Of a stretch of DNA of 64,000 nucleotides, positions 1 to 45,999 are shown piece after piece. Every line of letters starts with the position of its first letter. Positions within the stretch are counted from its first letter, which is position 1. Source of the DNA: Malania oleifera (taxonomy: Eukaryota > Streptophyta > Magnoliopsida > Santalales > Ximeniaceae); contig NC_080426.1 in the NCBI RefSeq assembly GCF_029873635.1, forward strand, positions 50,978,093 to 51,042,092, written 5' to 3'. Both the position numbers and the translations under genes were made by a program. Below the pieces are notes generated by a model. That model made no database searches and was not told the origin of the DNA. It saw nothing but the letters and a program-made list of their open reading frames with translations.

Positions 1-480
1 ACGGTGTGGCTCTTATACTTCGGGAGTTTATAAGCAAAGGGAAAAACATGTGGATGTGGTCTTAGTGCAGGGCAACAGCAAAGACTCGTCAACGAGTGGC
101 CTTCTCTAGCTCGTAGATGAGTGCCCTATTCTCGTCGACGAGTGGTCACTGGGTTGCGAGAAATAATTTAAATTTTGAATTTGAATGTTAGAGTGGTTGG
201 GTATTCGGAGGGAAACCTCTGAGGGGTTGTTATATATGTCATTCTGGGCATATTTCAAAATGTAAGAGAGTACGAGATGGGTGAGAGAAGGAGAGAAGAT
301 CATTGAGTGCATATATTTGATTTTTATAATGAAATCTCTTATCGATTGCTCCTGTGGATGTAGGCTTTATCGAATCACATAATTCCTAGTGTCGTTGCTC
401 TTATCTTTACTCTCTTTTCATTGCTATGGTTGTGAAATGTTTTCTATTTATCATCATTTTGTTTGTTGCAAGTATGTATG
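1..480 (+). mobile_element. Copia-type LTR fragment (partial, left edge outside window)
   Basis: The segment reads like the U3-R-U5 part of an LTR on the + strand. Three copies of a CTCGTCGACGAG-like palindrome lie at about 90-145, a TATA-like TTATATATG at about 229, and a CCTGTGGATGTAGG / TCGAATCACATAATTCC leader at about 350-385. The same kind of leader (GACGTAGG then CGAACCACGT) occurs in the copia-F LTR at about 36555-36590. No coding sequence follows, so this is an LTR piece, not an element. The right edge is uncertain; it fades into AT-rich DNA after about 480. Confidence 0.5.
85..150 (+). promoter_or_regulatory. GTCGAC-core palindrome array upstream of LTR TATA box
   Basis: Three near copies of CTCGTCGACGAG: ACTCGTCAACGAGT, GCTCGTAGATGAGT and TCTCGTCGACGAGT. 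They lie about 80 bp before a TATATATG sequence. This is the same arrangement seen in the other LTRs of the window. The regulatory role is inferred from position. Confidence 0.4.
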
Positions 481-7099: not shown

Positions 7100-8164
7100 T
7101 GTGATGCCCCAATTTTCCTATCATTTTTTTATATTTACAATAATAAACAATAATCAATCATCTATCAAATATATATGATATCATGATAGCAATGTCAACC
7201 CAATCCATAGTGGAATATTGGGGATATATTTGTTCATAAATACACACTATCCATGCAGCGGAATACATAAAGTGTCTGAATCCCATATACAATATTGGAG
7301 TGCTATAATCTCCACACATATACACATATATCCTTAAAAATCCATAGAATACTCAAGGGGTTATACAAAACATATCCCCACCTTGAAATCACTTACCCTA
7401 AATACTAGGGCATTAGATCTCCTCTACCTTGGAGCTCGCTCCGCTTGTTTGACTTGATTTCCTGAAATTTTTAAATTTTGGGTGAGACACCTCTCAGTAA
7501 GACGGAATAAATTATTGACAGTATGTGACAGCATGAGTTTTGATATATCATACACATTCATTTAAATAATTATATTAACTGAGAAAAACATACAGATATG
7601 TACTCATAATCGTATATATATATATGTGTATATATATATATATAAACATAGTTTCATAAGCTTACATTTCTCATATTCAGGTTCTAGCTCATAAGTATTC
7701 ACCATTATATAACACAACGCATCTGTAACTCATGGTTGTTCATTTTTCATTTCACTTTTCATAAACATGTTCTAGCTCATGAGCATCCACTAGTATATAA
7801 CACTACGCATCCATAGCTCATGGCTGTTTATCATATCTGTAACATAATTATCGCGTCTGTAATGAGGAACCATCCTAAGGACATTCATGTCACATCATCA
7901 TGTATTCACCCCACATGTCCGGATTGTGCGGCCCGAAGGCTAGACCTAACCGTGGTTGGCCTAGCAAGTTAGATAAAAAAATGTACGCGTTTGTAGTACA
8001 ATTGGCCTACCGCAGCCTAGTCCAGACTCTAGGGGTGGTCAAAATCTCTCCGTAGGCCCAATCGACTGTCGCTGCCACACTGTATCCACGACGTGTGGTT
8101 GCACTAACACATTTGCTAGCAATGGTATCGTGCTCTCTATATATCTCTAGTCCATCGGAGTTCT

Positions 8165-8660
8165 CATTTCCACATTTTTGTACTCATATTTCATCATGCC
8201 TATATAATTCTCATCATTTCTGTATAATTCTCATCATATTTGTATACATTTCATTTCATCACATCTGTATAACACATATTTGTGTATATTTCATATCATC
8301 TTATCTTTATCAAACATGTCTGTATATATATCACATATCGTCATTTCCATATAAAACATATTTGTATATCACATTTCATTATTTATGTGTAAAACATATC
8401 TGTATGTCTCATTTCATCATTTCTGTAAAACATATATGTATATCACATATATCATCATTTCTGTGTAAAACATATTTATATTTCTCACACTTCATATTTG
8501 TATAAAACATATCAGTATATCTCATATTATCAAATTTGTATAAAAACATATCTATATATCTCATAACTTCATTACTGCATAAAATCATATCTGTGTTTCT
8601 CATAACATCATTTCTCAGTACAAATCATATATTTCAGTATCAATCACATTCCCTGTATAA
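8165..8660. repeat. Minisatellite in gypsy-A 3' LTR intron-like zone
   Basis: Degenerate repeats of about 33-36 bp built from CATATCTGTATATCTCAT and TTTCATCATTTCTGT words. The same array is in the 5' LTR at 33180-33680, so it belongs to the LTR family. It produces spurious long low-complexity frames on both strands. Confidence 0.75.
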
Positions 8661-9263
8661 AACTGTTATTTCATACCCCTCATGCCACACAATTTTAGAC
8701 TGATAATCATAATATAATAATCATAGGGAAAATATCCATATCATAGTTTTCCAAAACCATATACAGTATTCTCAATTTCACATACTTTAAGTCAACTAGT
8801 TAATTTCCCAAAAATATCTGTTATAATTTATTCCCCTTACCTGCTTACTGAGAGGGTACCTGCTAAGATCTCTAAACCTATGCCCACGGTGTTCGGAGCT
8901 CAAAACTCTGTAATTATTTGTCCCTAGTTCAATCAACTCAACCCCAGAATAATAATCATTTAAACATCCCTAGGCCCATACACTCCATTTAATTAGTTAA
9001 ATTTTAAGTAGATAACACAGTTATCATCCTTACCTCAACTTTGGAGTAATGCTTAGAAACCTCAAAACGCAAAACTGCTCCGATCAAACGGTAGAGAATC
9101 ATCACCAGGATCCCAAAATGGTGTTTTCCAATTGATTCGGGCTTGATTCTGGAGAGAAATCGAAGAAAGAAGAGGTTGTGGTCGCAGCCCTAGGGAGAGG
9201 AGAGAGAGTTTATTTTCTCTCAAATAAAATGAATTAATTACCTCATATAGCCCACCGACCTGC

Positions 9264-9410
9264 AACAAACCCGTCGACGGTTTGCCTTGAAACCGTTGAC
9301 GGTTTGGTCTTTAACCAAGCTCATTTTAAACATTTTAACTTTACCTTGATGCAGTAACACGAAACCGTCGACGGTTTTCTACACCCCCACCAAACCGTCG
9401 ACGGTTGGTC
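9264..9410 (-). promoter_or_regulatory. AAACCGTCGACGGTTT palindrome array, gypsy-A 3' LTR
   Basis: Cores CCGTCGACGG at 9271-9280, 9365-9374 and 9395-9404, and a CCGTTGACGG variant at 9293-9302. They lie between the LTR start and the TATA box, in U3. Each intact core has three CpG sites; the variant is a CpG-to-TpG change. Confidence 0.6.
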
Positions 9411-9475
9411 TTCACCAAACCATCTTTCATCTTTTCTTTGTTTTTCTTATTATTTAAATTTTCCGGGTCTCTACA

Positions 9476-13327: not shown

Positions 13328-13448
13328 TGTAGTAACTTGAATAAAAAAAAAAAATCTTAAAGGAGATATTTTTAGTTATTTATATATAAATATCTTGGAG
13401 GAGATATTTTTAGATTACTTAAGGGCTAAGTTATGTTTATTATATAAA

Positions 13449-13508
<60 letters not shown>

Positions 13509-14272
13509 AGATCCTGTGGGGTCAATAATGACATGCCGGTTTGTCGAATAACGTTGAGGGTTGTGGAATACTGGTTCAATACCATGGGTTAATAATGACA
13601 TGATGATTTACCGGATTATGGTTACTAAAACGCAGGTTCAATACCGTGGGGTCAATAATGATATGCTGGTTTGCCGAATAATATCGAGGGTGGTGGAATG
13701 TCGGTTCAATACTGTGGGTCAACAATGACATGTTGGTTTGTCAGATTATACCAATAATTGTGAAAAATACTGAAATTGTTTGTGAAAATACTGAAAAAGC
13801 AAAATGCTTTGTTTCTTATTGGAATAACACTCATGTGCCCACACACTGATATAATTTGATTCTCTCTTACTGAGAAGTGTCTCACCCTAATCATACAAAT
13901 CTGTTTCAGGTCCTTTAGGTAGCCGAACCTAATGTTCTAGAGGGTTCTAGAGCGTAGTATTCTATTAGTTTTTGTACATACTGTTGTGAGTACTGAACTG
14001 TAGTTGGGAAGTCATTTTGGTTTATGTTGGATACCTTGGATTGATGTTTTGTATTATGATAGACTTAGTAATCTGGTATGAATGAATGTAACAAGTTGAA
14101 ATATGTTCCGCTGCGTTACTCATGTGAATATTGGTTGTGAGTAGGGCATCCACAAGCCCTATCGGGTTAGACTCTCATATTTATTGGTATCATGGATGTT
14201 TGTATGATACAGATACAGGTTAGGTTCTCAAATCATACCTTGGGGCCTACTTTCGGGGTTCAAGGCATGACA
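13328..14272 (+). repeat. 5' LTR of gypsy-B (945 bp, internally deleted)
   Basis: Begins TGTAGTAACTTG and ends AAGGCATGACA. Compared with the 1776-bp 3' LTR it lacks roughly 700-800 bp after the CT microsatellite (13452-13508): it jumps from leader sequence straight into the GTGGGGTCAATAATGACATG minisatellite. It retains CTTACTGAGAAGTGTCTCAC (13866-13885) and the TTTCAGGTCC acceptor-like site at about 13903-13911. Unlike the other LTRs it has no GTCGAC array in its short U3. Confidence 0.9.
13452..13508. repeat. (CT)n microsatellite in gypsy-B 5' LTR
   Basis: About 28 CT dinucleotides just after TATA-like TTTATATATAAATATC. The 3' LTR has the same tract at the same place. Confidence 0.9.
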
Positions 14273-14287: not shown

Positions 14288-14294
14288 TAACCAG

Positions 14295-16551
14295 TGAAAA
14301 GTAAGGTGTAGTCCCAAGAGGGGGGGTGAATTGGATTTTAAAACTTTCTTTGAATTCCTTTAAATAATTCTTGACTTGTTTGTTTAACTCTTTAATCACA
14401 AAAGAACTTAGATTCTTTTATCCAATCAACAATACTATTAAACAACCAATCAATGAAGCACAATATTCAAACCAAACAACCAATTAATTTCTCAAGTATA
14501 AGTTAACTGCAGCAGTATTAGATTAATGGAAGTATGCAAACTTCAACACTCTTTGGAATATAAACACATTCAAACTTTAAACCATTTAGCCACAATATAT
14601 CAATATATTAAACTAAACTTTTAGCTTTTGCTTGGTTATAAATTTGAATTGAGCCCTGTAATGAATGATAATTTGTGTTTGCTGATGTGAAGCCTTGTAT
14701 TGATTGATTTGCTTAATATGATATGTAATATAAAATTCAATCAACATAACATCCACACTTTTCCCAATATTCAGAATTCAAATAAACTCTCAATTAATTT
14801 ATCTTTGGGTTGTTAACCAAGTAACGTACTCCCGTATGGTTTCCACAAGATATGGTTTAACCAACGTACTCCCTTTCGGTTTCCACAACCCAAATCAAAA
14901 TTAAACTTTAAGTTTACTTAATTCCCAACTATACGTAGTATATATGATTTTCAATGTAAACCATCCACGCAATTTAAATATGTACTGAAAATAAATAGTA
15001 GGGAAAGAAAGAGTGAGAGGAAGATTTTTACGAGGTTCGGCTTATACTCAGCCTACGTCCTCGCCTTTGGCAAACCACCAAAGGATTCACTAAATCTGTT
15101 CCTTTGACGGGTAGAACAATACCTTTACAACACTCCTTGGTTAAGATTAGAGCCTGCCTTCTCTAAATGATATCCCCTCGTCCGGTCACTCTTTAACTAG
15201 GCTAGAGCCTGCCTCTCTAAGCAATATCCCCTTGCTTAGCCAATGATCTAAAAAATACTTGGAATCATCAATCTACAAGAAATAAATCAAATATTTATGT
15301 ACAAAGAATTACTCACACAAAGAGCTGATTAGTACAACAATTCAGAACTATAGTATACTTCAAAATAAATAGCAATATGAAATTTAACTTGAAGCTCAAT
15401 GAAGTATATCACTGATTAATTCTTTCAATGATTGAAAGATTTAGAATTTGTAGCACAATTCCGGTGGAATAAAATCAGCTAAACTCAGTTGGATTCATGC
15501 AAGTTGAGAGCAAGAGAGAGCCTTGAGAATTTGAGAGCAATTGAGAGAGATTTTGAATTTTTGCTGAATTGAATTCTTGGTGCATTGATTCAACGATCTT
15601 TGAGACTTATTTATAGATTTTAAAAGTATATAACTTGATCCTCAAGTGACTTGGAGTATTCCCCAAGTTTTCACAAATTTTGAGCCCCAAGCACCCTCAT
15701 TTAAAAATTTGACCGTTATGAAAAAATTCAAAACAGCCACGTGACAGATGACTGCCCATTTTTGGCATTTGTCTATCCAGTTAAACCAAATGGACAGTAA
15801 TGTGATAGTCGGCTATCCAAACACGAACAGACGCCTCAAAGTGCACTGATAGTCGGCTGTCCAGTTCTTGACAGTTATCTATCAGGCTGTCAACTTTAAG
15901 CACCCTTCAATCATTTGATCATAACGTTTTCTACGTAACTCCAAATTTGACGTTCTTGGTGTCAAATGAAAGCTAAGAGAAAATCCTAATAATTTCATGT
16001 TTAACACATTTTAAAATAAATATTTTTTTTATGGAGAAAAATGTACATCAATGAGGATGTAGTAAAATTGACAGCATTTGAGAAATCATCTTTTGGGTGT
16101 TTTTCATTCCAAAAATAATTCTAACCTTTTTGAAGCAAATTCTGACCTTATAAAAATATTTTCCAAGTATGTCCAAAGGTATCTAGGTCCAATAAATTTA
16201 CCGAAGAGTTTCATGCATCCATATTGAAATTCTTTGAAATACCTACATGAAATTTCCCAAACTCTTTCGAATTTTCAATTCTTGAATTCTTTGAGGTCTT
16301 CATGCTTGTTTCATATTTCTTTAAGCTTTCATCAAGTTATCTTTAATCCTCATGCTCTCATGATCTTCAAGTTTTTATCTTTGAATCCATGCTTTTAGCT
16401 TCATATTGAATTCCTTCTTTGAAATACAAGCTTTCATGAATTCTTTAACGCTCTATCCTTGAGTCTTGAAAATCCATCACTTAACATAGCATGTTAAGTT
16501 TTACTTGTTTGTTAGCATCAAAATAGGATATTAAGCCTTGTAAGGCCAACA
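14295..16551 (-). repeat. 3' LTR of copia-C (2257 bp)
   Basis: Minus-strand start TGTTGGCCTTACAAGG (16551), end CTTTTCA (14295). Upstream of a TATA box CTATAAATAAG (about 15606-15617 on the complement) lies a cluster of GACAGTC / GTCTGTC words (15735-15900). A conserved leader GCAAGGGGATATTGCTTAG and GACGTAGGC block (about 15045-15240 on the complement) follows, as in other SIRE-like LTRs. Near the end is the CAATTCACCCCCCCTCTTGG block shared with solo LTR E. Confidence 0.9.
15735..15900 (-). promoter_or_regulatory. GACAGTCGTCTGTC-like motif cluster in copia-C 3' LTR
   Basis: Repeated near-palindromic words built on TGACAG / CTGTCA arms around a GTCG-like centre (for example GATAGTCGGCTGTC). 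They sit just upstream of the LTR TATA box. The motif differs from the gypsy ones but occupies the same place. Confidence 0.4.
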
Positions 16552-17490: not shown

Positions 17491-17519
17491 ATTTCATTCT
17501 CAAATATCTTTAAAAAAAA

Positions 17520-17775
17520 TTATGCAGTCGCCTGTCAACAGGGGGCAGTCGTCTGGCACTAAATAACTAGGTTTTTAAAAATGAACAGAAGGGTTACAGA
17601 CGACTGACAAAACCTACGCAATCGTCTCAATTGTCACTGACAGTCGTCTGTCAACAACTTGACAATCGTCTGTCAACAACTTGACAATCATTTGTCATGC
17701 TTCTGTCTACTTAATTAAGGTCCTTTAATTTGTCAGTTGACTGTCCATGACAGGCAATCGTCTGTCAACCAATTG
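17520..17775. repeat. TGACAGTCGTCTGTCA motif cluster inside copia-C
   Basis: At least eight occurrences of GTCGTCTGTCAAC-like words, in both orientations and with single-base variants, including a short tandem of ACTTGACAATCGTCTGTCAA. This is the LTR motif type but in the internal 3' region, without a nearby TATA box. Confidence 0.65.
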
Positions 17776-20099: not shown

Positions 20100-22159
20100 A
20101 TTGAAAAGTAAAGTATAGTCCCAAGAGGGGGGGGGTGAACTGGATTTTAAAACTTTCTTTTAATTCTTTTAAACAATTCTCGACTTGTTTGTTTAACTCT
20201 TTAATCACAAAAGAACTTAGATTTTTTTATCCAATCAGCAATACTATTAAACAACCAATCAATTAAGCACAATATTCAAACAAAACAACCAATTAATTTC
20301 CCAAGTATAAGTTAACTGCAGCACTATTAGATTAATGGAAGTACGCAAGCTTCAACACTCTTTGGAATATAAACACATTCAAACTTTAAACTATTTAGCC
20401 ACAATATATCAATATATTAAACTCAACTTTCAGCTTTTGTTGTCAGCCCTGGTCATAAATTTGAATTAAACCCTATAGTGAATGATAATTTGTGTTTGCT
20501 GATGTGAAGCCTTATATTAATTGATTTGCTTAATATGATATGTAATATAAAATCCAATCAACACAATATCTACACTTTTCCCAATATTCAGAATTCAAAT
20601 AAACTCTCAGTTAATTTATCTTTGAGATGTTAATCAAGTAATGTACTCCCGTATGGTTGAACACATTTTAAAATAAAGATTGTTTGATAGAGAAAAATGT
20701 ACATCAATGCGGATGTAGAAAAATTAACAGCATTTAAGAAATCCTCTTTTTGGTGTTTTTCATTCAAAAAATGATTCTAACCTTTTTGAAACAATTTTTG
20801 ACCTTATAAAAATATTTTCTAAGTATTTCCAAAGGTATCTAGGTTCAATAATTTTACCTAAGAGTTTCATGCATCCATATTGAAATTCTTTGAAGTACTT
20901 ACATGAAATTTCCTAGACTCTTTCGAATTTTCAATTCTTAAATTCATTGAGGTCTTCATGCTTGTTTCATCTTTCTTTGAGCTTTCATCAAGTTCCCTTT
21001 AATTCTCATGCTCTCATTGTCTTCAAGCTTTTATTTTTGAATCCATGCTTTTAACTTTATATTGAATTCCTTCTTTGAAGTACAAGCTTTCATGAATTCT
21101 TTAACGCTCTATCCTTGAGTCCTAAAATCCATCACTTAACACATGTTGAGTTCTACTTGTTTGTTAGTGTCACGACCCGCTCATTTTCTACACATTTTTT
21201 TTAAAAAAAATAATATCAACATCAAACATCACAACTCAGTAGGTCACAATTCACCTGGACCCGTGAGTACCAGGGATACATCTGAACATACAGCAGAAGC
21301 CTACGCAACAGAAAGTATAAAATCATATACATCTCGTCATAATGTACAATACATCATACTAGAGTACTCCAAACACTATCTCTCAATATGTGTACATCCC
21401 AAAAATAAACCTAGGGTCCCACAAAAATCCTAACTGTCCCTACCAAAAACTTACCTTTCCAAAGAGAGCAAACACTGCTCTAGATCAGCGGGGCTTTTCC
21501 CACTCTCCTATCAGGTGCTCCTGAAAAATGTATAAGATTTAGGGGTGAGACACCTCTCAATAAGGGAAATAAACTAATACTAATATGTGGCAACATGAGT
21601 ATTTCGTATTCTACATATATCGTACATAACATATTTAGTACTGTTTATCAAATCTGGGAAAACATAAGTATATCAAAACATGGCAGAACATACTGCATTC
21701 TCATAAACATTTCTCATCTCATATCATAATAATAATAACATAAAACAATCCTGATAGGTTAGTTGGCTGTTGTCATGTATTACCCCCCACATGACTGGAT
21801 TGTGTGGCCCGAAGGCGGGACCTGGCAATGGTTGGCCAATCACTGCCAAGTCAATAGTCTAGTCTGTAGGTCCGATGGGTCTACCCAGACTGGTCCGTAC
21901 ACCAGGGGCGATAACAGCACACTTCTTGAAAATAATCACATCGACCATCCAATCTCACACCACTCCGTACAGCGGCATTAACACAGATATCATGATCACG
22001 AGGACCATGGCACATAACAACGGTACCGTGCAAGTGCTAGCCTAAACCAAGCCAACCAGGTTCTGATATCATATACATATACTGAAACTGTGATACGTAA
22101 ATATCTCATATCATTTATTTTTACATCAATCATATCATTTCACATATATACATGTATCA

Positions 22160-22395
22160 TGAAAATCATCGGCCCATACGCCGGTATTACACATTTTATC
22201 ATAGTTTGGCCCGTACGCCAGCTACACATAGCACAACCCGTACGCTGGCAACAGTAATCACATAGCACGGTCCGTACACCGGCAATCATAGTCACATAGC
22301 ACGACCCGTACGCCGGCAAATCACAGTCACATAGCACGGCCTGTACGCCGGCAAATCACATAAAAATCTCAGCCTGTACGCCAGTTTTCCATCAT
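22160..22395. repeat. Minisatellite, about 34-36 bp unit, in solo LTR D
   Basis: Several copies of CACATAGCACGGCCCGTACG plus CCGGCAAATCACAGT with small changes. Spacers are not unique sequence and units vary, so this is a minisatellite, not a CRISPR array. It lies between the second donor-like and the acceptor-like sites of the LTR. Confidence 0.8.
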
Positions 22396-22516
22396 AAAAA
22401 TCCATATCATCCACATTCCCAGAAAAATAGTATTTCACAACATTTTTACTCATGCCACATAATAGATTTTCCACATATTCAACATACGATATTTTCACAG
22501 TATTTTGCAAATGTAA

Positions 22517-22520
<4 letters not shown>

Positions 22521-22551
<31 letters not shown>
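22521..22551. repeat. (TA)n microsatellite
   Basis: A run of about 15 TA dinucleotides within solo LTR D. Confidence 0.85.
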
Positions 22552-22555
<4 letters not shown>

Positions 22556-23067
22556 ATATACATTTTTCATAAATCAAATGATAAATATATATAAGCATTT
22601 TCTCAAAAACGGAAACTAACTTAGTTTATCCCCTTACCTAATTCCTGGAAAGCCCCTAATAAAACTGCCCCGCACCCGCAGGGTTCCTAACTCAACACCC
22701 TGAAAATGAAAAATCCTAGAATTAAAGTTCAGTATTTCGAAGCATACAATATTTTCTTCAACTGCCAAAAACTCAAATATTGAGTAGAAAGTTTTCACCT
22801 AAAAGCATTTAAGTTTAACACCTGAGGGGTTCCCTGACCAATACTCTGAAACTGAAAACCCCCAATATTAAACTTCAATATTTTCATGCGCACAACATTT
22901 CTTCTAACTAGCGCAAGACTAAATATGACTTAAAAAGCCTTACCTCAACTCTGAGATGACTTCCAACTAGCTTTCTCCCACGATCCGCTCTAGCAGATTT
23001 GGAGAGAACTCCACCATGAGCGTCGTGGTGACTTCAGATTGTCGATCTGACGTATATCTGGCCCACA

Positions 23068-23068
23068 A

Positions 23069-23103
<35 letters not shown>
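23068..23103. repeat. (GA)n microsatellite downstream of LTR D TATA box
   Basis: On the minus strand this is a CT run in the transcribed leader, matching the CT tracts of gypsy-B and of the 44463 LTR fragment. Confidence 0.85.
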
Positions 23104-23105
<2 letters not shown>

Positions 23106-23164
23106 TGAAGGGGAGAGAGAGAAGAGAGTGATGGCTTCTTTCATAAGATAAAATTTCAGATTTT

Positions 23165-23440
23165 TGTATATATAAAACAGAGGATTTCGTCGACGAGTCC
23201 GTTCTTCGTCGATGAGTCCTTCACAAATTTCATCGACGAAACCCTGTATTCGTCGACAAAATTCAGGCTGCCTCAGAACCCTTCTCGGTATTTTCTTGTC
23301 GATGAAGCCCTGTGTTCGTCGACAAAATCTTTAAAGTCTTCGTCGACGAATCCCCTGTATTCATCGACGAAGCCCTATTGGCCCCCTTTCCTTTAGTCCT
23401 TCCAAAATTCAATGTCATCGACGAACGCTTTGTCGATGGC
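23165..23440 (-). promoter_or_regulatory. TTCGTCGACGAA palindrome array in solo LTR D
   Basis: About ten copies of TTCGTCGACGAA or one-base variants (TTCGTCGATGAG, TTCATCGACGAA, TTCGTCGACAAA), spaced 15-40 bp, upstream of the TATA box on the minus strand. Most variants are CpG-to-TpG or CpA changes. Confidence 0.6.
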
Positions 23441-23880
23441 TTCCTTCTATTTCCGGTTTCAATTTCCCTTTTCTTTTATTATTTAACTACCATTTTATTC
23501 GGGTCGTTACAGTTAGCATCAAAATAGGATATTAAGCCTTGTAAGGCCAACAACTAGGTTGTTAGGTCTTATAGACTTGATTAGGCTTGATTAGGTAAAC
23601 ATACCAGAGTAGAGGAATGTAAGGAATGGGAAGATTGAGATATGGGTAAAGTAGGTCAAGGGTTGTCTTGTAGCTAGATAGGGATTCATTCATAGTGTTC
23701 TGGGTTTTTCCTAGAATGACGGTTTTAGTAAAATCATGGCAAACCATTGATGATTTCATGTCAGTGTTGTGAGGTAGACCTGGACCCGAGAATTTAGATG
23801 TTAACATGATTATTTTACAATGATTGTGTTAATTGTGCTATGACATAAGAATACTAATATATTCTTATCCTGTTTTCAGA

Positions 23881-25082: not shown

Positions 25083-25164
25083 TGTAACAACCTGAAAATT
25101 TTTAAATAATTTGAAATAGTAAAGAAGACGGGAAGGGAAGAAAGAATAAATTCGAAAATGTGGT

Positions 25165-25340
25165 AGCCAGCATTCGTCGACAAACGAACTAGTCTCGTCG
25201 ACGAATGTTCTTCAAAGCTCGTCGACGAGGGTATGTGTCTCGTTGACGAGGAATTACTGAGAGGGGTTCTTCGCATGACTGAAATTCGTCGACGAGGTGG
25301 CTGTCTCATCGACGAATCGATGTGTCTCGTCGACGAATCC
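25165..25340 (+). promoter_or_regulatory. CTCGTCGACGAA palindrome array in solo LTR G
   Basis: Seven near copies (ATTCGTCGACAAAC, CTCGTCGACGAATG, CTCGTCGACGAGGG, CTCGTTGACGAGG, TTCGTCGACGAGG, CTCATCGACGAAT, CTCGTCGACGAAT), ending a few bases before the TATA box. Confidence 0.6.
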
Positions 25341-26214
25341 CTATGTATATAAAGTGAATTTCTTTCATTTCTACGGGAATTATCTGCATGTTTTCTCTCT
25401 CTTACTAAAATTCGGAACTACCACCCTCTCTTTTTGATTTCGGGCCGAATTTCAACTAGTTTGACAACCTAAAGCTACCACGACGCTCCTGGAAGAGTTC
25501 TCTACAAATCTTCTGGAGTGGATCGTTGGTGGGACTAGTTAGGAATATATCCTAAATTTAAGGTAAGGCTTTTTACGTAAAATTTGGCTTTACCCTAGTT
25601 GTAGGAAATATTATATGCGAAGAAATACTGAAATTTAGTTCTAGGAAATGTGGTTTCAGGGCGTTGAACGGGGAACCCCTGCGGGTGCAGGACTGGTTAT
25701 TTTAGGAGGTTTTTCATGAATTAGGTAAGGGAAAATATTTTATAATAGCTTTTTAGTAATTATTAAAATGACTAATTTTGGGTAAAAATCCTACATATAC
25801 AGGTATAATTTTTCTAAACCAAACTGATATTGAAAATGTTGTTTTAATTATATAAGTATTAGATTGGGAAAAATTGTGTGGTTGACACCATTTTGCAAAT
25901 TAAATGATTGTCATTTATGTGGAATGAGGAAATGGTTGAGATTGTGAATGTTATTTGACTGAAATTCTTGTCTGGTAGAATACACCGATTGGATTGTGAA
26001 CATTGTTTGGTTGAAAATACTGGATGGTTGAGTATACTGTGGTATTTGCATGGACATGGTTGATTAGTTAGGTTTGTGATTGATCTGTGGTGTGGTTTAT
26101 GTGAATGACGATATAACGTTGGCAGTGATATGAGGAGGTCATTATATGGACATTTATACTGGGAGGTAAAACATTGGCAGTGGTATAAGGAGGTTGTTTA
26201 CCTATTTATTATGA

Positions 26215-26420
26215 ACGGGGTGTTTATTTTGTAATCTGTGTGGGTTGAGTAGTCTTGTGTGGACATTGATGCTGTGTGATTTAATTAGTCTTGTGTGGAC
26301 CAGTCCTGTGTGGATGTTGATGTTGTAGCTGAGCAGTTCTGTGTGGACAATGATGTTGTGTGATTTGATTAGTCCTGTGTGGACTAGTCCTATATGGACA
26401 CTGATGCTGCGTGATTTGAT
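26215..26420. repeat. Minisatellite in solo LTR G
   Basis: Imperfect repeats of CCTGTGTGGACATTGATGCT and TGTGTGATTTGATTAGT words, placed between the second donor-like and the acceptor-like sites of the LTR. Confidence 0.65.
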
Positions 26421-27254
26421 CCTGTGTGGATTGATTATAATATGGGCGTATGCGTGAAATTCTGTGAAGCGATTATGTTGGTTGTGTACGAATGTTAATA
26501 AATTAAGTATTTTGGGTAAAGTAAATTATTCCACCCGAGAGCTTGCTGAGGAAGGCGAGTACTCTGGTAATTATTTATGGATACTAGGGTAGAGGGAAGC
26601 CACTTGTATTGGTGGGTGATCTTCCCCATTCTTGATGTCTTTACCTGAATACATATCCTTAAGGGCTTACTGAGAAAGGTGAGTGCCCTGGTGTTAACAC
26701 TAAAGCAGAGGGAACCCACTTGTATGGGCGGGTGGATTTCCCTATTCTCGGAAACTAACATTAAAATACTGATTGGTTATGGGTATGTGATTGGATGATA
26801 TGGACATTGATCCCGTGCGATTATGGGCATGTTATCTGGCTTCTTGTGAACTGTGTGTACACCTAAGATGGATATTTTAAATTGTATTATAAATACTTCA
26901 GCCACACACTGTTATAAACTATTTCTTCCTTACTGAGAGGTGTCTCACCCCGACATATGTTAAATCTTTTCAGGTTATCCAGGTGATCGAGTTTAGGTAA
27001 CTACAAGGCAGGGTAGTTTTGTGAGTTAAATATAGCAAATCGGATATGTATTTAGCTTATGTTTACTATGTATTAATTCTAGATTTATAATATGAAGGAT
27101 TAGGTTGTAATTATTATGGATCAATGTATGTAAATATAGCACTCTGGTATTTTCTGTTAAAGATATTTATTATTTCCGCTACGTAAATGGTATCAGAGGC
27201 GTGTGTCGGTCTCTTAACACATTGGGCCCTGCGTGGCGGGTCTGGGGCGTTACA

Positions 27255-29170: not shown

Positions 29171-29248
29171 TGTAGTAACTCAAACAATATATATATATAC
29201 CTTAGAGGAGATATTTTTAGATATTTATATATAAATATCTTAGAGGAG

Positions 29249-29250
<2 letters not shown>

Positions 29251-29321
<71 letters not shown>
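29251..29321. repeat. (CT)n microsatellite in gypsy-B 3' LTR
   Basis: About 35 CT units, longer than in the 5' LTR. Confidence 0.95.
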
Positions 29322-29323
<2 letters not shown>

Positions 29324-29999
29324 TGCGAATTCACTCTCTCTTTATAAGATCTCGGGTGGCTCGTTGCCCAAATTAATGATCCAACATTACTATGTGGATC
29401 AGTGGGTGAATCTCTACAAGTCCTACAGAGTAGAATCTCGATTTGAGGATTTCTAGGTTTTTACCCCGAAGTTGAGGTAAGGGTCGAAACAAGCCTAGTG
29501 ACTTGTAGATCTGTAATAAATAGGGTGATATTGACATATGATCTTTCGGTTTTAGGATTTGGGAATCCATGTGGATGTTTCGAGCCGTTTCGAGTCGTGT
29601 TTTAGTATTCGAGAACAGGTAAGGGGATTTGTTTATATCAGTTATTTTTAAAATCTGATTTGGTAAAACTGTAGGTTATGTTTATACGGATGTTTTGGTT
29701 ACTTGTTTGGAAAATTTCACCGAGTGAGATTGTCGATTTTTAGGGTGTGTGGTTTTCAAGAAAATTAGGGTTTCGAGTATCATCTCCATTTCTTTTGGAA
29801 AATCGTTTATTTGAATAAAACTAAAGTATAGAGATGACCATACCTTTATTTTATGTTAAACTGTATTTCCATATCAATTATCATATGATTTTTTTAATTA
29901 TCCAAATAGATGTGGCAGGAGAGGATATTTTGTGATGATTGAGTTTTGATGTGTTTGAAATGAAATATAGGAACTGGAGTTCCAAACTGTTTTCAAGAA

Positions 30000-30430
30000 T
30001 GGTGGTTACTGACATGCCAGTTTAATTACCGTGGGGTCAATAATGACATGTCAGTTTGATTCTATGGGGTTGAGACATTTCGAATTAATACTGTGGGGTC
30101 GTAAGACATGCCGAGTTAGTACCGATGGTCATAAATTGCCGGTTTACGCCAAAGAGTGTGAAAATACTAGATTTATGTTGGTTCAATATCGTGGGTCAAA
30201 AATGGCATGCCGGTTTGCCGGATTATGGTTACTAAAGCGCAGGTTCAATACCATGGGGTCAATAATGATATGTCAGTTTCCTGGATAACATCGAGGGTTG
30301 TGGAATGTCGGTTCAATATCGTGGGTCAATAATGACATGCCCATTTCCCGAATAATATCGAGGATTGTGGAATGTCGGTTCAATACCGTTGGTCAATAAT
30401 GACATGCTAGTTTTCCGGATTATACCGATG
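30000..30430. repeat. Minisatellite in gypsy-B 3' LTR
   Basis: Irregular units of about 60-80 bp with GTTCAATACCGTGGGTCAAT and AATGACATGCCGGTTTGCCG words. The same array is at 13512-13740 in the 5' LTR. Confidence 0.75.
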
Positions 30431-30951
30431 ATTGTGAAATATACTAGAACTGTTTGTAAAAATACTAGAAATGCGAAATGCTTTGTTTCTTATTGGAATA
30501 ACACTTATGTGCCCACACATTGATATAACCTGATTCTCCCTTACTGAGAAGTGTCTCACTCCAATCATACAAATCTATTTCAGGTCCTTTAGGTAGTCGG
30601 ACCTAGCATTCTAGAGGGTTCTGGAGCGTAGTATTCTGTTAGTTTTTGTAAGTACTATTGTGAGTACTAAACTGTAGCTGGGATGTCATTTTGGATTATG
30701 TTGGATACCTTGGGTTGACGTTTTGTATTATGAAAGACTTAGTACTCTGGTATGAATGAATGTAATAGGTTGAAATATGTTCCGCTATGTTATTCATGTG
30801 AATAGTGGTTGTGAGTAGGGTATCCGTGAGCCCTATCGGGTTGGACCCTCATATTTATTAGTATCATGGATGTTTGTATGATACAGATACAGGTTTGGTT
30901 CTCATATCACACCCTAGGGCCCACTTTTGGGGTTCGGGGTGTGACAGTAGG

Positions 30952-32102: not shown

Positions 32103-32617
32103 TGTGACGCCCTAATTTTCCTACCATTTTTTTTTATATTTACAATAATAAAAAATAATCAATCATCAATCAAATATCTCTTATACCATGATAACAATGT
32201 CAACCCGGTCCATAGTGGAATACCAGGGATATATATGTTCATAAATACACACTATCCATGCAGCGGAATACATAAAGTGTCTGAGTCTCATATACAATAC
32301 CAGAGTGCTATAACCTCCATACATATACACATACATCCTCAAAAATCCATAGAGTACTCTAGGGGTTATACAGAACATATCCCCAACTCGAAATCACTTA
32401 CCTTGAATACTAGGGTACTAGATCTCCTCTACCTCGGAGCTCACTCCGCTTGTTTGACTTGATTTGTTGAAATGTTTAAATTCTGGATGAGACACCTCTC
32501 AATAAAACGGAATAAATTATTGACAATGTGTGTGGCAACACGAGTTTTGATATATCATACACATTCGTTTAAATAAAATTATATCAACTGAGAAAAACAT
32601 ACAGATATGTACTCATA

Positions 32618-32656
<39 letters not shown>

Positions 32657-33179
32657 ATAATTTCATAAGCTTTCATTTCTCATATTTAGGTTCTAGCTCA
32701 TAAGTATCCACCAGTATATAACACAACACATTTGTAACTCATGTCTGTTCATTTTTCATTTCACTTTCATAAACATTTTCCACCTTATGAGCATCCACCA
32801 ATATATAACACTATGCGTCTATAGCTCATGATTGTTTATCATATCTGTAACATAATTATCGTGTCTATAATGAGGAACCATCCTGAGGACATTCATGTCA
32901 CATCGTCATGTATTCACCCCACATTATCGGGTTGTATAGCCCGAGGGCGGGACCTAACCGTGGTTGGCCTACCTGGTTAAATCAAAATTGTAAGCGTCTG
33001 TAGTACAATTGGCCTACCGCAGCTTGGTCTGTACTCCAGGAGCAGTCAACATCTCTCCGCAGGCCCAATCAACTGCCACTGCCACACTTTATTCAAGACA
33101 TGTGGTTGCACTAACACATTTGCTAGCAACGGTACCATGCTCTTTGTATATTTCTAGTCCATCAGAATTCTCATTTCCA

Positions 33180-33680
33180 CATTTCTGTACTCATATTTCA
33201 TCATGTCTCTATATCTCATCATGTTTGTATAATTCTCATCAAATCTGTATAATTCTCATCATATATGTATACATTTCATTTCATCACATATGTATAACAC
33301 ATATTTGTGTATATTTCATATTATCACATCTTTATCAAACATGTATATATGTATATATATATATATATATATCACATATCGTCATTTCCATATAAAACAT
33401 ATATGTATATCACATTTCATCATTTCTATGTAAATTATATCTATATGTCTCATTTCATCATTTCTATAAAACATATTTGTATGTCACATATATTATCATT
33501 TCTTTGTAAAACTTATATGTATTTCCCATATCTTCATATCTGTATAAAACATATCAGTATATCTCATATCATCATATCTGTATAAAAACATATATGTATA
33601 TCTTATAACTTCATTACTGTATAAAATCATATATGTGTTTCTTATAACATCATTTCTTAGCCAAATCATATATTTAAGTA
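33180..33680. repeat. Minisatellite in gypsy-A 5' LTR
   Basis: Counterpart of 8165-8660. CATATATGTATATCACAT and TTTCATCATTTCTGTAT words repeat with about 33-36 bp spacing, including a (TA)n run at 33349-33371. Long frames here are artefacts of the repeat. Confidence 0.75.
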
Positions 33681-34304
33681 TCAATCACATTTCCAGTATA
33701 AAACTGTTATTTCATATTCCTTATGCTACACAATTTTAGACTGATAATCATAATATAATAATCACAGGGAAAATATCCATATCATAGTTTTCTAAAACCA
33801 TATGCAGTATTCTCAATTTCACATACTTTAAGCCAACCAGTTAATTTTCGAAAAATATATTTTATAATTTATTCCCCTTACCTGTTTACTGAGAGGGTGC
33901 CTGCCAAGATCTCTAAACCCACACCGCAGTGTTTGGAACTCAAAACCTTGAAATCATTTTTCTCCAGTTCAATCAACTCAACCCTAGAATTATGATCATT
34001 TAAACATCCCTAGGCCCATACACTCCATTTAATCAGTTAAATTTTAAGTAGATAACACAGTTATCATCTTTACCTCAACTTTGGAGTGGTGTCAGAAACC
34101 CCAAAACACAAAATTACTCTGATCAAATGGCGAAGAATCGTCGTCGGGATCCTGAAATGGTATTTTTCAACTGATTCGGGCTTGATTATGGAGAGAAATC
34201 AAAGAGAGAAGACGTGGTGGCTACAACCCTAGAAAGGGAAGGATAGAGGATTTATTTTCTCTCAAATAAAATGACTTGAATACCTTATATAGCCCACTAA
34301 TCCA

Positions 34305-34450
34305 CAGCGGAACCGTCGACCGTTTGCCCTGAAACCATCGACACTTTGATCTTTAACCAAACTTATTTTAAATGTTTTACCTTTACCTAGCTATGGTAAC
34401 ACGAAACCGTCAATGGTTTTCTACGCCCCCAACAAATCGTCGACGGTTTG
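34305..34450 (-). promoter_or_regulatory. AAACCGTCGACGGTTT array, gypsy-A 5' LTR
   Basis: Four sites, all weaker than in the 3' LTR copy: CCGTCGACCG (34313-34322), CCATCGACAC, CCGTCAATGG and TCGTCGACGG (34437-34446). The changes are largely at CpG. Confidence 0.5.
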
Positions 34451-34515
34451 GTTTTCACCAAACCATCTTCCATCTTTTTTTTTTTCTTATTATTTAAATT
34501 TTCTAGGTCTCTACA

Positions 34516-36070: not shown

Positions 36071-36777
36071 TATAGGGGATGTGGCTCATATTTTGAGTGG
36101 AACGCATGTATCGGGGGAAAGCACCGTGAAGCAAGGGACCAAGAGAGAAATGCAGGATGGCAGCCCTTAACGGCAAATCGTTGACGGTTTGGGTATAACC
36201 GTCAACGGTTTCAAGTAGTGCTACAGGGGCAATCCTCTCGACTTCAAACCGTCGACGATTTCACTTCAAACCGTTGACGATTTCGCTTCAAACCGTCAAC
36301 TGTTTCGCTTGAGAATGTCATGGATTTTCAAATTGGAGATTAGTAGATTGGGATTTTGTGAAGGAATTTCCTTTAGGGGATCACTACAGAAGTGTTTTAG
36401 ATATACTATAGGTCTTCTGTTTGCTTTAGATTGATATATAACCCTCATTATGTAACCCTAAAAAGATTAAGCTTGGTGCAAGCTTTATAAGCTTGGTGTA
36501 AGCTTCAAGGGCTTTGTAAGCTTCAATATTGATAGTGAAAACAATCGCTGCTCTCGTAGACGTAGGTAAATTTTCGAACCACGTAAATTCTTGTGTCTTT
36601 TGGTTATTGCTTTTATTGATTCTCTTGGATAAGTGATTGCTTGGTTAGTATAGTTCATCATCGAGTGCTTGCTTGCTTTTTCCATTGATTGTTTCGTGAG
36701 ATTTTGTGTGAGATCTTCCACTACGAATACTCGGCACTGACAATTGGTTTTTGAGTGCTGATTGTTTAGGAACAACA
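36071..36777 (+). repeat. 5' LTR of copia-F (about 707 bp)
   Basis: Its start TATAGGGGATGTGGCTCA corresponds to TGTTGGGGATGTGGCTTA of the 3' copy at 44409; the first bases are mutated. It ends in AACAACA. It carries the GTCGAC-like array 36170-36310, a TATA box GATATATAACC (about 36430-36440) and a GACGTAGGTAAAT leader (about 36559). Confidence 0.85.
36170..36310 (+). promoter_or_regulatory. AAACCGTCGACGATTT array in copia-F LTR
   Basis: Five near copies of the same motif as gypsy-A: AAATCGTTGACGGTTT, ATAACCGTCAACGGTTTC, then three tandem 22-bp units (36242-36308) TTCAAACCGTCGACGATTTC, TTCAAACCGTTGACGATTTC and TTCAAACCGTCAACTGTTTC. They lie about 120 bp before the TATA box. Confidence 0.65.
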
Positions 36778-38549: not shown

Positions 38550-38990
38550 ACTTCGGTCGACTGACGCCGGATTTTTGGGTTTAATTTAAATACCTAAGCC
38601 ATAGACTGACCTTAGGTCCCTAAACATCACATGAAAAGTCCCATATAACTCAAAAGTTACACTTATGTGAACAGGGGTGACTTCTAATAAAAATCAGGAC
38701 CTAAAATGACCATTGAAAGGGCCTTGGTCGACCGAACCAGTCTAGTTATACTATGCTAGGTCGACTGAACCACTATTGGCTAAGGAGATTAAGCCTCAGT
38801 CAACCGAACCTGTGCAGTATGAATGCTACGGTCGACCGAACCATACGAAAGTCAATATTTTGACTTCGCACGATCGAGCGTCCAGTTTCTGAACATAGTG
38901 TCCTCGCTTGACTGAACCGCCACATGCTTGAAACCCCGTACACTCGGTCAACCAAGTTTTTTAGTTCTCTTTGGCCACGGATGACTGAAC
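38550..38990 (+). promoter_or_regulatory. GGTCGACCGAACC motif array in solo LTR E, left part
   Basis: At least nine copies or variants, for example TCGGTCGACTGACG (38556), TTGGTCGACCGAACC (38725), AGGTCGACTGAACC (38758), TCAGTCAACCGAACC (38796) and ACGGTCGACCGAACC (38830), spaced 25-45 bp. TCGGTCGACCGA is the implied palindromic core. The array continues beyond the inserted LTR H at 41195. Confidence 0.6.
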
Positions 38991-40149
38991 CATATAAGTT
39001 GTAACAACCTCAAAATTCTTGCCATTATATATATCTGTATATCTACATCCATACCTAAGCAGCGAGAACACATATTATATAACCATTCACATATATATAC
39101 TATACAATACCAGAATCTAGTATATACAGACCATAGCCATACAAAAATACCCCCCAGCATCATCTACTCAAAAATATACACAACTCTGTCAAAAACTTAC
39201 CCTATGACCAGGGTAATCAAACTACTCTCTATTCGCGAGCCTGATCTGCTCGCCTAACTGGCTCACCTAAAAAATGTTAAAGTAATGGGGTGAGTCGACG
39301 CTCAGTAAGTGGAAATATACTATTGCTAGTGTGTGGCAACAAAGTTAAGGATACTTTTAAATAATAACTGAACTGTAATATAACAAATAATCTGTAAAAC
39401 ATATTTTTCTTTCTAAATTTAAAACATACTGTATCGTCTGTATTTATCTACTTTTCATACTGATAATATCATACTATACTCATTATATACTATAAAAATT
39501 GTATACATATACATATCTATGTTTTATCCCTGAGACTCTGTACGTCATGATTTGACCCTTCATGACAGGGTTGTGCGGCCTGTAGGCAGGACTTCATCTG
39601 GTCGACCCTCCAGATAAGTCAATATACTCTACATTACCTCAGTCCAGCCAAACTGCATCCTCTCCTAAGCTCGAGACTGGCTACTACCTCACAAAGCGGC
39701 CCCCTCCACCCAGGGAACTGGAGAGTTGCATACTCTCCGAGCACGGCTGACAGTACCCACACACTATCTGAGATATGTGGTTGCACTCTATCTGTATCTA
39801 GCAATGGTACCGTGCTCTGTATTCTATATCTATAATGTATCTGTTTGTAATCTTTCCACAGGGATCTGATATAATATACATATATACATATATACTCTTT
39901 TACTGTTTTCTTCATGTTTCCAAAATTACCATAACGCTATCTTTCTGTACTGTAAATATTGTAATCTCTGTGTACTACATCTGTAGCATCTTGATGCTAC
40001 CTCTGTATTTCTGTCTGTATACTCTATCTATATACTCTGACTGTATACTCTGTATGTTATGGTAATAGGAAACATGGCATACTATAACTCTGTATATACT
40101 ATTCTGTATAAAACTGTGATATTATACTGATCTGAATAAAATTATATAC

Positions 40150-40191
<42 letters not shown>
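40150..40191. repeat. (TA)n microsatellite
   Basis: A TA run of about 40 bp inside solo LTR H. Confidence 0.9.
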
Positions 40192-40194
<3 letters not shown>

Positions 40195-40884
40195 TGTTTC
40201 ATGAAACTACTCATATAAAAACTATATATGCATGTAAATTTCTCTGTATACTCTCTATGTATATAAATCTATATTTGTATATTCTGTGTAATCTCATATA
40301 CTGGAAAACTATATAAATTGTATATACCATTTATATCCGTGTACTCAGTATAGTATGATACTTTATAAAAGCTGTATAAATTCTTCATTACATAAAAATC
40401 TACTCAAGCCACACAAGCATTTAACTCATATTTTATAAATACTGTATAATAAACTGGTATAAATATGTGTCTTTGAAATCTTTGATAACATTATGAAAAA
40501 TCATAGTATAGCGTATTTCCCTTACCTTAAGTTTGAAAAACCCCTATAAAATTCTGGCTCTATACCCGTAGGGTTCCTAACTCAACATCCTGAAAACACA
40601 ATCCCCCAGAACAAAATATCAGTATTTTCTTACCTACAACATTTCTTATAACTGGGGAAAAGGCAAATACTAAATTAAATGTCTTACCCTCAGAATGGGA
40701 CGAAATTCAACTCAATTTTTCCAGCGATCAGCTCCAGCAGACTTGCAGAGAATCTCGCCAAAAGCATCGTGGTAGCCTCAAATCGTCGATCCGGCAAGAA
40801 ACCGGCCCCAAAACGAAGAGAGAAGTGAGAGAGAGTCGTAGAGAGAGAGGGGAGAAAGAGAGAGGAGCGTTATGAATGGTTAAA

Positions 40885-41115
40885 AAATTCATCAACGAAT
40901 CTTTCAATAAATTCGTCGACAAGGCCCTGTATTCGTCAACGAAATTCAGGCTGCCCCCAGAACCCCTCTCGATATTTTCTTGTCGACGAGGCCCTGTATT
41001 CGTCGATGAATTTCCTTATACACTCATTAACGAAGCCCTATATTTGTCGATGAGTTCGCAATTCCTTGAAATTATTATTATTATCCCCAATTATTATCGC
41101 GTTCGTCGACGAAGT
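40885..41115 (-). promoter_or_regulatory. TTCGTCGACGAA array in solo LTR H
   Basis: About eight near copies (TTCGTCGACAAGG, TTCGTCAACGAAA, CTTGTCGACGAGG, TTCGTCGATGAAT, TTCGTCGACGAAG and others). The spacer GGCCCTGTATTCGTCGA recurs here and in solo LTR D. Confidence 0.6.
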
Positions 41116-41194
41116 ATACGGCCCTCTTCTATTCTTGTTTTCATTTTTCTCCCTCTTTAATATTTAAATATCAATATTTTCCTGGTCGTTACAT

Positions 41195-41360
41195 GAGTAG
41201 TCGACCGTCCTCTTTGTTGGTCGACCGAACCTACGAACGGTTCAAAATCGCCCAAATACGGTCAACCATATTCTTAGTTGAAAAACTCCACGGCCAATCG
41301 AAGCTCCTAAAGTGGTCAACCGAATCCTTAATATGGTCGACCAAACCTTTCAGGTTGCCA
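41195..41360 (+). promoter_or_regulatory. GGTCGACCGAACC motif array in solo LTR E, right part
   Basis: Further copies: AGTCGACCGTCC (41200), TGGTCGACCGAACC (41219), ACGGTCAACCATA, TGGTCAACCGAATCC and TGGTCGACCAAACC. They end about 100 bp before the TATA box. Confidence 0.6.
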
Positions 41361-44462: not shown

Positions 44463-44710
44463 TGTAAAGACTCAGAAAATTGAATTAATGAGAAAGTAAA
44501 AGAAAAGAAGGTTTTTGGTTTGGTGGGAGACTAGAAAAATCGTTGACAATTTTGTATTTACTATAGGCTAGTTACAGGTAAAACGGTAAATAGAGTGGGT
44601 TAAAGACCCAAACCGTCGACGATTTTGAGGGGTGTAGAAAATTGTCGACGGTTTTGTCTACAGTGCTGATTTTAAAGGGGGGCTGCGAGCTTCATTTGCT
44701 TTAAACAAAC

Positions 44711-44783
<73 letters not shown>

Positions 44784-45203
44784 CCCTACAACACCCTCTC
44801 CCTTCTCTCTACGATTGTGCTTCGATTATAGCTCAAATTGACGATCAGAAGCTACCATGAGATCCTAGAAGTGATCCCTAGCGGTTTAATCAAAGTAGAT
44901 TTTCAATTTTGGAATTCCAGGCACCACTCCATAGTTGAGGTAAGGATGTTAAATGTTGGTATTTAATTGATTTAATAGAGTGTTTGGGTCTGGATATGTT
45001 TTAATGATAATAATTCTAGGGTTGATGTTGTTTGAACTGAGGAAATATGAATTTTAGGACTTTGAGCTTTGAACGCTGTGGGCGTGGATTTAGGGTTGTT
45101 GCAGGCCTCTTAGTAAGTCAGGTAAAGGGAATAAATTATAACAGTTATTTTTTAAAAATTACTGATTGAATAAATATGTGAAAATGAAAATATTATATGT
45201 TCA
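44463..45203 (+). mobile_element. Gypsy LTR fragment I (5' part of a Tekay-like LTR)
   Basis: The start TGTAAAGACTCAGAAAATTG resembles the gypsy-A LTR start TGTAGAGACCCGG. It has three GTCGAC sites (44537-44660), a (CT)n tract (44717-44779), leader, donor-like TGAGGTAAGGATG (44937-44949) and a second donor-like CAGGTAAAGGG (45119-45129). It stops at about 45203, where SIRE-like LTR sequence begins; the minisatellite, acceptor and LTR end are missing. Confidence 0.8.
44717..44779. repeat. (CT)n microsatellite in LTR fragment I
   Basis: About 31 CT dinucleotides in the leader position shared with other LTRs. Confidence 0.95.
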
Positions 45204-45552
45204 CCTAGTGTTGTATACGGTGTCGCTCCACCCGTTAAGTGAGCTTTAGTGGAATCCTAGGACTTGCGAGCTGAGACGGGGACATAGGCAGTATTGGTTG
45301 AACCCCGATAACATATCGTGTGTCTACTTTTAATTTCTAGCACTTTATATTCCTTCACATATATATTATATTTGATATATTATGAATGTTGCGCATGATT
45401 TAATTTCTGCATATTATTTTTATCTACGCAATTGGTATATGCTTAAAAAGATCCTAGGCTGTGTATTACTGATATCTTATTTAACTTAGGAAGAAATTTT
45501 AAAATTCCAATTCACCCCCCTCCCCTCTTGGGAATACACCAATTCCAACACA
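45204..45552 (+). mobile_element. 3' end of a SIRE-like LTR
   Basis: CCTAGTGTTGTATACGGTGT through GGGGACATAGGCAGTATTGG to CCAATTCCAACA is a close relative of 42208-42598 in solo LTR E. Only the last 350 bp are present, joined to a broken gypsy LTR. Confidence 0.85.
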
Positions 45553-45999
45553 CCTAATAGTGCATAACATGGAATGCTAGTCTAGAACCTATTTGGTATC
45601 GTCATTGTTTTTTGTTTTTGTTTGTTTTGCCATAGTGAAGAAACAAATTATAAAAACAGATTCGTTTATGTTGTCAATTTTTACTTCTTTTGTCAATTTT
45701 CAGTTATTTGCCAAATAATTGAAAATCAAATTTTATGATTTTCAGTTGTTTTGGCAACTTGTTGCCTAAAATTTTAATATCTATAAATAATTTTTTGGTT
45801 TAAATTATTTATTTTATACACTTTTAAATTAAAATCAAAAGTAGATGATCATATGAATTTAAATATAGTTAAAATAAAAAAAAACCATAAATTTTTAAAA
45901 AAATTGTAATAAAGCCAAATACAAAATAATTTTACTATTTTTAATTATAATGTCCAATAAAATTTTTATTGTAAAGTAAAATTTGAAAGTAGAACAATT
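45553..45999. other. AT-rich spacer
   Basis: AT-rich DNA with poly(A)/(T) stretches and no supported gene or repeat end. Confidence 0.55.

Follow-up and report, generated by a model that had tools for sequence, protein, structure and literature searches.

The window, i.e., the whole stretch of DNA analysed, covers 64 kb (50978093-51042092) of a 1.49-Gb genome. It contains gypsy and copia LTRs bearing rows of short palindromic words, the coordinates of which are collected in Table 1. The initial annotation had described such arrays in LTRs of both superfamilies, and the words stand where it placed them when the window sequence is checked. Some details had to be corrected. The two stretches attributed to copia E form a single array, split by solo LTR H. 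The copia C array is present in the LTR, but its word is of another type than the GTCGAC words with which it had been grouped, and a second array holding GACAGTCGTCTGTC lies outside the LTR. Fragment I is a gypsy LTR as proposed, but it is truncated and sits within a copia-F-type LTR. A gypsy/copia chimera was rejected for this fragment, the gypsy-A-type LTR being inserted in the copia-F-type LTR. The copia LTR around the array at 1-150 starts at or past the window edge.

Other features were noted along the window. LTR insertions in or beside arrays were met in a few cases: H inside the copia E array, I about 50 bp into the copia-F-type LTR, D (21168-23511) near the start of the copia C LTR and, at the sampled locus L114 (near 7100), the copia element L114c inside an array of cop1 type. 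The stretch 45200-45571, 3' of fragment I, resembles the end of the copia E LTR (42206-42598) and directly abuts the truncated gypsy LTR. In many gypsy LTRs, a CT/GA microsatellite lies after the array or the TATA box (13449-13507, 29252-29321, 44716-44779, and sampled LTRs); this also applies to gypsy B, which carries no array. By reading, an eIF1A-like ORF was recognized at 1548-2087 and a LINE-like ORF pair at 59950-63999, and a domain match (RT_RNaseH) located an RNase H fragment at 50487-50906. Scanning the window for Rfam families and tRNAs gave no match.

Table 1. LTRs and palindrome arrays of the window (positions counted from its first nucleotide).
Feature	Position	Strand	Remarks
cop1 array, copia LTR	85..145	+	3 YTCGTCGACGAR-type words; TATA at 231; copia by reading of R-U5
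Gypsy A1 LTR	7100..9475	-	2.4 kb
A1 array	9268..9406	-	word AAACCGTCGACGGTTT; only TATA-like TATATGA at 9249
Copia C 3' LTR	14294..16551	-	
Copia C array	15735..15900	-	word TGACAG-N4-CTGTCA, not GTCGAC-centred; TATA at 15616
Second copia C array	17500..17764	-	internal region, outside LTR; holds GACAGTCGTCTGTC
Copia C 5' LTR copy	20103-23552		interrupted by solo LTR D
Solo LTR D	21168..23511	-	target-site repeat GTTAG/GTTAG
D array	23186..23440	-	word YTCGTCGACGAR; spacers ATACCGAGA and ACAGGG; TATA at 23174
Solo LTR G	25083..27254	+	target-site repeat TAAAT/TAAAT
G array	25173..25339	+	word YTCGTCGACGAR; TATA at 25346, 11 bp past last core
Gypsy A2 LTR	32103..34515	-	
A2 array	34310..34449	-	decayed AAACCGTCGACGGTTT words; TATA at 34291
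Copia F 5' LTR	36075..36774	+	followed by primer site and copia gag
F array	36175..36306	+	word AAACCGTCGACGGTTT; TATA at 36435
Copia E array, first part	38550..38992	+	word CGGTCGACCGAAC
Solo LTR H	39000..41193	-	within E array; target-site repeat TAAGT/TGAGT, 4/5 match
H array	40888..41113	-	word YTCGTCGACGAR; no TATA match
Copia E array, second part	41199..41350	+	TATA at 41462
Fragment I	44463..45198	+	truncated gypsy A-type LTR in copia-F-type LTR
I array	44537..44655	+	word AAACCGTCGACGGTTT

The hexamer GTCGAC occurs 31 times in the window against 3.4 expected, the highest observed/expected ratio among the 64 palindromic hexamers, and 100 dinucleotide shuffles of the window gave a mean of 3.48 and a maximum of 8. 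The sites are also clustered, with 5 within 250 bp compared with at most 2 in the 100 shuffles. A general excess of palindromes was rejected as palindromes as a class were at shuffle level (38 vs 32.4 ± 5.3); 13 of these 38 were centred on GTCGAC. The same hexamer ranked first again (71 vs 11.6 expected) in a sample of 20 stretches of 10 kb (200 kb), taken at fixed steps from four chromosomes of the same genome. Exact genome counts reached 37,861 for TTCGTCGACGAA (67 for the reversed control) and 2,219 for AAACCGTCGACGGTTT (1 for the reversed control). Arrays, defined as at least three near-cores of which one is exact, hold 80 of the 102 exact GTCGAC sites of the window and sample. The palindrome arrays are borne out at the genome scale, in part and with corrections: GTCGAC leads the palindromic hexamers, but the copia C word is not of this kind.

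The position of the 24 arrays of the window and sample was compared with that of 5,000 random intervals. The arrays lie just inside LTR starts, and all 24 were placed in LTR-like sequence by a reading that was not blind. A TGTA-type LTR start was found within 160 bp upstream of 15 arrays, compared with 9.5% of random intervals; one or two of these matches are due to chance, since copia F is matched on the wrong strand and L116 only loosely, and copia arrays mostly count as misses because the pattern was designed on gypsy LTRs. A TATA box (strict pattern) lies within 120 bp downstream of 14 arrays (24.3% of random intervals), and both marks are present for 9 arrays (1.6%). The distance from the end of the last core to the TATA box is exactly 11 bp in six gypsy LTRs. 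These marks support the slot between LTR start and TATA box that was initially proposed. However, 10 of the 24 arrays have no TATA match within 120 bp downstream, solo LTR H has none, none was seen by reading in fragment I, and A1 has only a TATA-like sequence. The case of H and these 10 arrays count against the explanation that we favor below. The gypsy-B LTRs had been presented as lacking the array, and GTCGAC is indeed absent from their repeats (13328-14272 and 29171-30946). A helical phasing of the words was set aside, as one of the spacing peaks (20-21, 24-25, and 32-33 bp), that at 24-25 bp, corresponds to a non-integral number of turns; shared spacing in related arrays results from descent, which weakens the phasing reading.

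Domain matches and reading of the surrounding DNA attributed the arrays to both superfamilies. At the sampled locus L113, the array-bearing LTR comes after ORF pieces with RVT_1 (E = 1.5e-35) and SH3_Tf2-1 (8.4e-25), which makes this carrier a gypsy element. On the copia side, the array of copia F stands in an LTR that leads into the primer site and gag, and the L114c element presented RVT_2 (E = 1.2e-71) between two LTR copies that were 96% alike over the compared stretch. With regard to the multiple polypurine tracts (ahead of the 3' LTR) and the env-like ORF of Sireviruses, this element showed GGGGGAG repeats by reading and an ORF matching Transposase_32 with 28.6 bits, under the cut-off of 45. 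In the L114c family, the array was present in all 12 copies fetched (among 41 places listed), one of these being the other LTR of L114c itself, and the number of words varied from 4 to 12 per copy. The 24 loci with AAACCGTCGACGGTTT that were classified by reading (4 + 20 loci from two genome listings) comprised 14 gypsy, 5 copia (3 of F type and 2 tentatively C-like), and 5 that reading left unassigned. The copia gag piece gave 120 listed matches, among which the few named hosts were Carya, Vaccinium, Vitis, and Populus. The array-bearing gypsy LTRs start with TGTAACAACC, TGTAACGACC, TGTAGAGACC and similar sequences, which are near but not identical to the Del start TGTAACACCC; this LTR start suggests a Del/Tekay-like lineage, a name that we propose as a lead. 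Genome counts, positions, and domain matches therefore support the initial idea of a promoter-proximal module in gypsy and copia LTRs. Among viral contigs, pattern searches (two scans) returned 90 and 8 stretches; three of these 98 loci had less than 46% GC (L037, L067, and L069), and the DNA read around their matches contained no LTR. Scans with protein pieces gave 1 and 1 stretches in viral contigs (two scans) and 10 in genome contigs (one scan), none of which was confirmed.

The dyad symmetry of the words extends beyond the core: among 80 array cores, the arms are complementary in 69, 79, and 56% of cases at the three positions that follow, and complementarity further out is at background level. 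The word types share the core and vary in their arms (AAACC, YTC, GG). This combination of a constant core with varied arms is unlike the expectation for a single factor with a long site, and counts against our preferred explanation. It also bears on a role at the RNA level, in which the palindromes of the 3' U3 would form hairpins for packaging, dimerisation, or 3'-end processing, or would template silencing small RNAs. All eight stretches folded from the arrays of the window fold better than the average of shuffles (z from -2.45 to -5.86), and the accessible portions of PMC5311732 and PMC10760457 describe the palindromes of maize Sireviruses as hotspots of small RNAs. However, strong folding is expected of palindromes whatever their role, and hairpins would tolerate any arms and centre, whereas all these lineages keep one core; the arrays also stop close to the TATA box. 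We consider this RNA-level role unlikely.

In 12 aligned gypsy U3s, word columns were 0.80 identical compared with 0.56 in the other columns. When the same sequences were coded as purine/pyrimidine, these values became 0.99 and 0.77, and this coding is flattered because the core variants used to define the word columns all differ by transitions. The 14 gypsy arrays contained 113 words with at most 3 mismatches from TCGTCGACGA, against 8.3 in shuffled arrays. Such retention of the words while the intervening spacers diverge is hardly expected of neutral repeats, i.e., functionless words that slippage or unequal exchange would have multiplied and that nested insertion and conversion would have spread. 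The variable number of words between copies of the L114c family and the frequency of nested insertions in the window would agree with that scenario. Nevertheless, the same slot is occupied in different superfamilies and a CpG-rich neutral word would be expected to vanish first, so that we regard neutrality as very unlikely.

The departures from the words indicate how the arrays aged. Among the 113 gypsy words, 113 of 128 departures from TCGTCGACGA were C>T or G>A changes at CpG, the others being 7 other changes at CpG and 8 changes at four non-CpG positions. Similarly, 103 of 113 departures were CpG transitions in the 119 words of the 12 copies of the L114c family. As these departures are nearly all CpG transitions, the YTCG arrays were near-uniform at insertion and lost their CpGs later; the substitution pattern suggests that the arrays were probably methylated after insertion. 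The bias was weaker in the other arrays, where the numbers of CpG transitions, other changes at CpG, and changes elsewhere were 64/1/25 for the AAACCG words of 13 sampled gypsy loci, 8/1/7 for gypsy A1, A2, and I of the window, 9/5/10 for the copia F type (9 of 24, a weak bias), 66/1/46 for copia E, and 5/1/54 for copia C. The weak CpG bias of the F type and the non-CpG departures in the AAACCG gypsy words (25) and in copia E (46) count against the explanation that we favor.

A decay almost wholly at CpG, together with the three CpGs of the YTCG word, could also point to a CpG platform, where clusters of CpG in CpG-poor DNA would draw methyl-CpG readers, anti-silencing factors or silencing, the exact word being of minor importance. 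CpG islands upstream of the TATA box in Sireviruses and in the LTRs of monocot Del elements, reported in the accessible parts of PMC2829016 and PMC4029996, are in line with this possibility. Yet such a platform requires no particular palindrome, the non-CpG letters hardly vary (the 8 changes mentioned above for the gypsy words), and the copia C word has one CpG per copy. On this basis, we find a CpG platform quite unlikely.

The sequences between the words give information on how the arrays spread. After masking of the words, five 8-mers were present in at least 5 of 40 arrays, four of them being parts of GATACCGAGAG and the fifth being GTTAAAGA. The motif ACCGAGA occurred 28 times in the sequence searched, 11 times near cores, and 2 of these 11 were within copia E words. 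The masked array of copia L114c scored 18.07 against the 14 gypsy arrays, compared with a mean of 13.60 and a maximum of 15.29 in 300 shuffles, and with 13.64 on the opposite strand. Without masking, L114c and gypsy D aligned over some 190 bp. The result extended to the family: nine copies gave a mean spacer score of 18.38 against the gypsy arrays (14.56 on the opposite strand), four copies tested gave 18.21 vs 13.68 ± 0.26 in shuffles, and a repeat of the comparison was similar. One of the 14 gypsy arrays, L105, was closer to the L114c family on the opposite strand. The single copia copy L114b also had spacers above 300 of 300 shuffles in comparison with gypsy arrays. The sharing of same-strand spacers by the Sire-like copia L114c family and the gypsy D/H type calls for a common source, and this cassette is best read as having passed by exchange or from a common source.

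Other pairs gave lower values. Gypsy A and copia F share the word AAACCGTCGACGGTTT, as initially noticed, and their spacers are not shared: the score of copia F-type against gypsy A was at shuffle level (15.71 vs 15.85), so that the word is all they have in common. This case, with a 16-bp word alone, is best read as a separate gain of the same site. Spacers were also at shuffle level between copia E and copia L114c and between copia L114c and gypsy A; the array at 1-150 did no better, 225 of 300 shuffles equalling or exceeding its score. Gypsy A and gypsy Y scored 15.50 vs 14.96 in shuffles, with a shuffle maximum of 15.68. In the first spacer test against gypsy arrays, both copia E copies were above 300 of 300 shuffles and F above 298 of 300; copia E was weakly above shuffles against both gypsy groups, and among C-like copia the spacers of L125 were above 200 of 200 shuffles against gypsy A and those of L101 above 193 of 200. 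Given copia E, F, and L125, the spacer signal may to a small extent be non-specific. Gypsy LTR bodies may have switched words: a R-U5 tree of 28 LTRs requires 3 changes of word type, but only 1 is forced by its well-supported branches. The initial suggestion that the module was gained repeatedly or exchanged thus finds its exchange half in the spacers of the L114c family and gypsy, and its separate gain in the word of the F and A types; taken as a whole, the first interpretation is partly supported.

Host-response sites in U3 are a feature of the ONSEN heat elements. For the genome studied here, where sampled stretches were covered and loci were partly classified by eye, we hypothesize that, in the U3 of LTR retrotransposons, the arrays act as upstream activating regions, read by a dimeric host factor and spread in two ways, an explanation that we hold to be probable as a whole. 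The dyad-symmetric site, present in about 3 to 12 copies per row between the LTR start and the TATA box, would probably be bound by one dimeric host transcription factor or by a few related ones, with which dyad symmetry and conservation fit; the bound factor would activate the LTR promoter, and the conservation of the words would reflect selection. After insertion, the CpGs of the arrays would decay, probably through methylation, as judged from the substitution pattern. A first route of spread would be a composite cassette of YTCGTCGACGAR words with ATACCGAGAGG and ACACAGGG spacers, found in Del-like gypsy and Sire-like copia, and a second one the separate gain of the 16-bp word common to the copia F and gypsy A types. 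In a bolder form, to which we give slightly less than an even chance, a promoter cassette of about 200 bp passed between gypsy and copia while other LTR lineages converged on the same words, with one host factor or a small group of factors as common currency and tens of thousands of sites strewn over the genome. If a host factor reads the words, retrotransposons of unrelated superfamilies could be activated jointly by a single regulator, the exact copies of TTCGTCGACGAA giving the scale. With this case, two questions also become open to direct testing: whether a promoter module can move between gypsy and copia, and whether LTR lineages arrive separately at identical host sites.

Palindromic boxes before the TATA box are already known, a precedent of which the initial annotation was unaware. 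Sirevirus LTRs contain multi-copy palindromic repeated motifs (RM boxes) upstream of TATA (Bousios et al., 2010; PMC2829016). In the accessible part of that article, the RM boxes are presented as specific to Sireviruses and as missing from classic Ty1/copia elements; all but one share a CGG-CCG core, and each element has at least 8 copies. Further boxes lie internally before ENV, and the Vitis box is CGGTCGACCG. The latter is the copia E word, which makes copia E an ordinary case; copia E is also the only one with the CGG-CCG core, which YTCGTCGACGAR and AAACCGTCGACGGTTT do not have. The arrays described here cluster upstream of TATA as well, and repeated dyad boxes of the Sirevirus type were found in D, H, and the L114c family, while A, F, and the array at 1-150 hold fewer words. 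The internal array of copia C (17500-17764) resembles the boxes before ENV, although no ENV gene was identified in copia C. In contrast to the Sirevirus boxes as presented in that part of the article, the main carriers here are gypsy LTRs (the carrier L113 being gypsy by its domains), CGTCGACG is the core of the commonest words, and one word or cassette occurs in both gypsy and copia.

In maize, a study of 2016, seen through the accessible portions of PMC5311732 and PMC10760457, is reported to have shown that clusters of Sirevirus palindromes define the LTR regulatory region, in addition to being the small-RNA hotspots discussed above, and that the same palindrome is the commonest motif of structured regions of maize Helitrons. 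That system concerns copia (and Helitron), and sharing between gypsy and copia is not mentioned in those portions. Del LTRs start (U3 att) with TGTAACACCC, and those of monocots have 5' CpG islands and a CpG-rich variable stretch, unlike eudicot Del, which is without island (Cruz et al., 2014; PMC4029996, accessible part). The gypsy LTRs studied here have a start of the same type and a CpG-rich 5' part, but, in contrast to the present arrays, the string "palindrom" is absent from the accessible text on Del. In the Tnt1 superfamily (PMC1838419) and Rider (PMC6762207), the U3 holds host-response sites and forms a module evolving apart from the coding part; these are single copia families, and a word shared with gypsy, as observed here, is not mentioned in the accessible parts of these articles. 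Among the titles and abstract openings of a partial library, no report of one palindromic word in both gypsy and copia LTRs was found. Thus, compared with these known systems, the new features are the gypsy carriers and the words and cassette common to both superfamilies.
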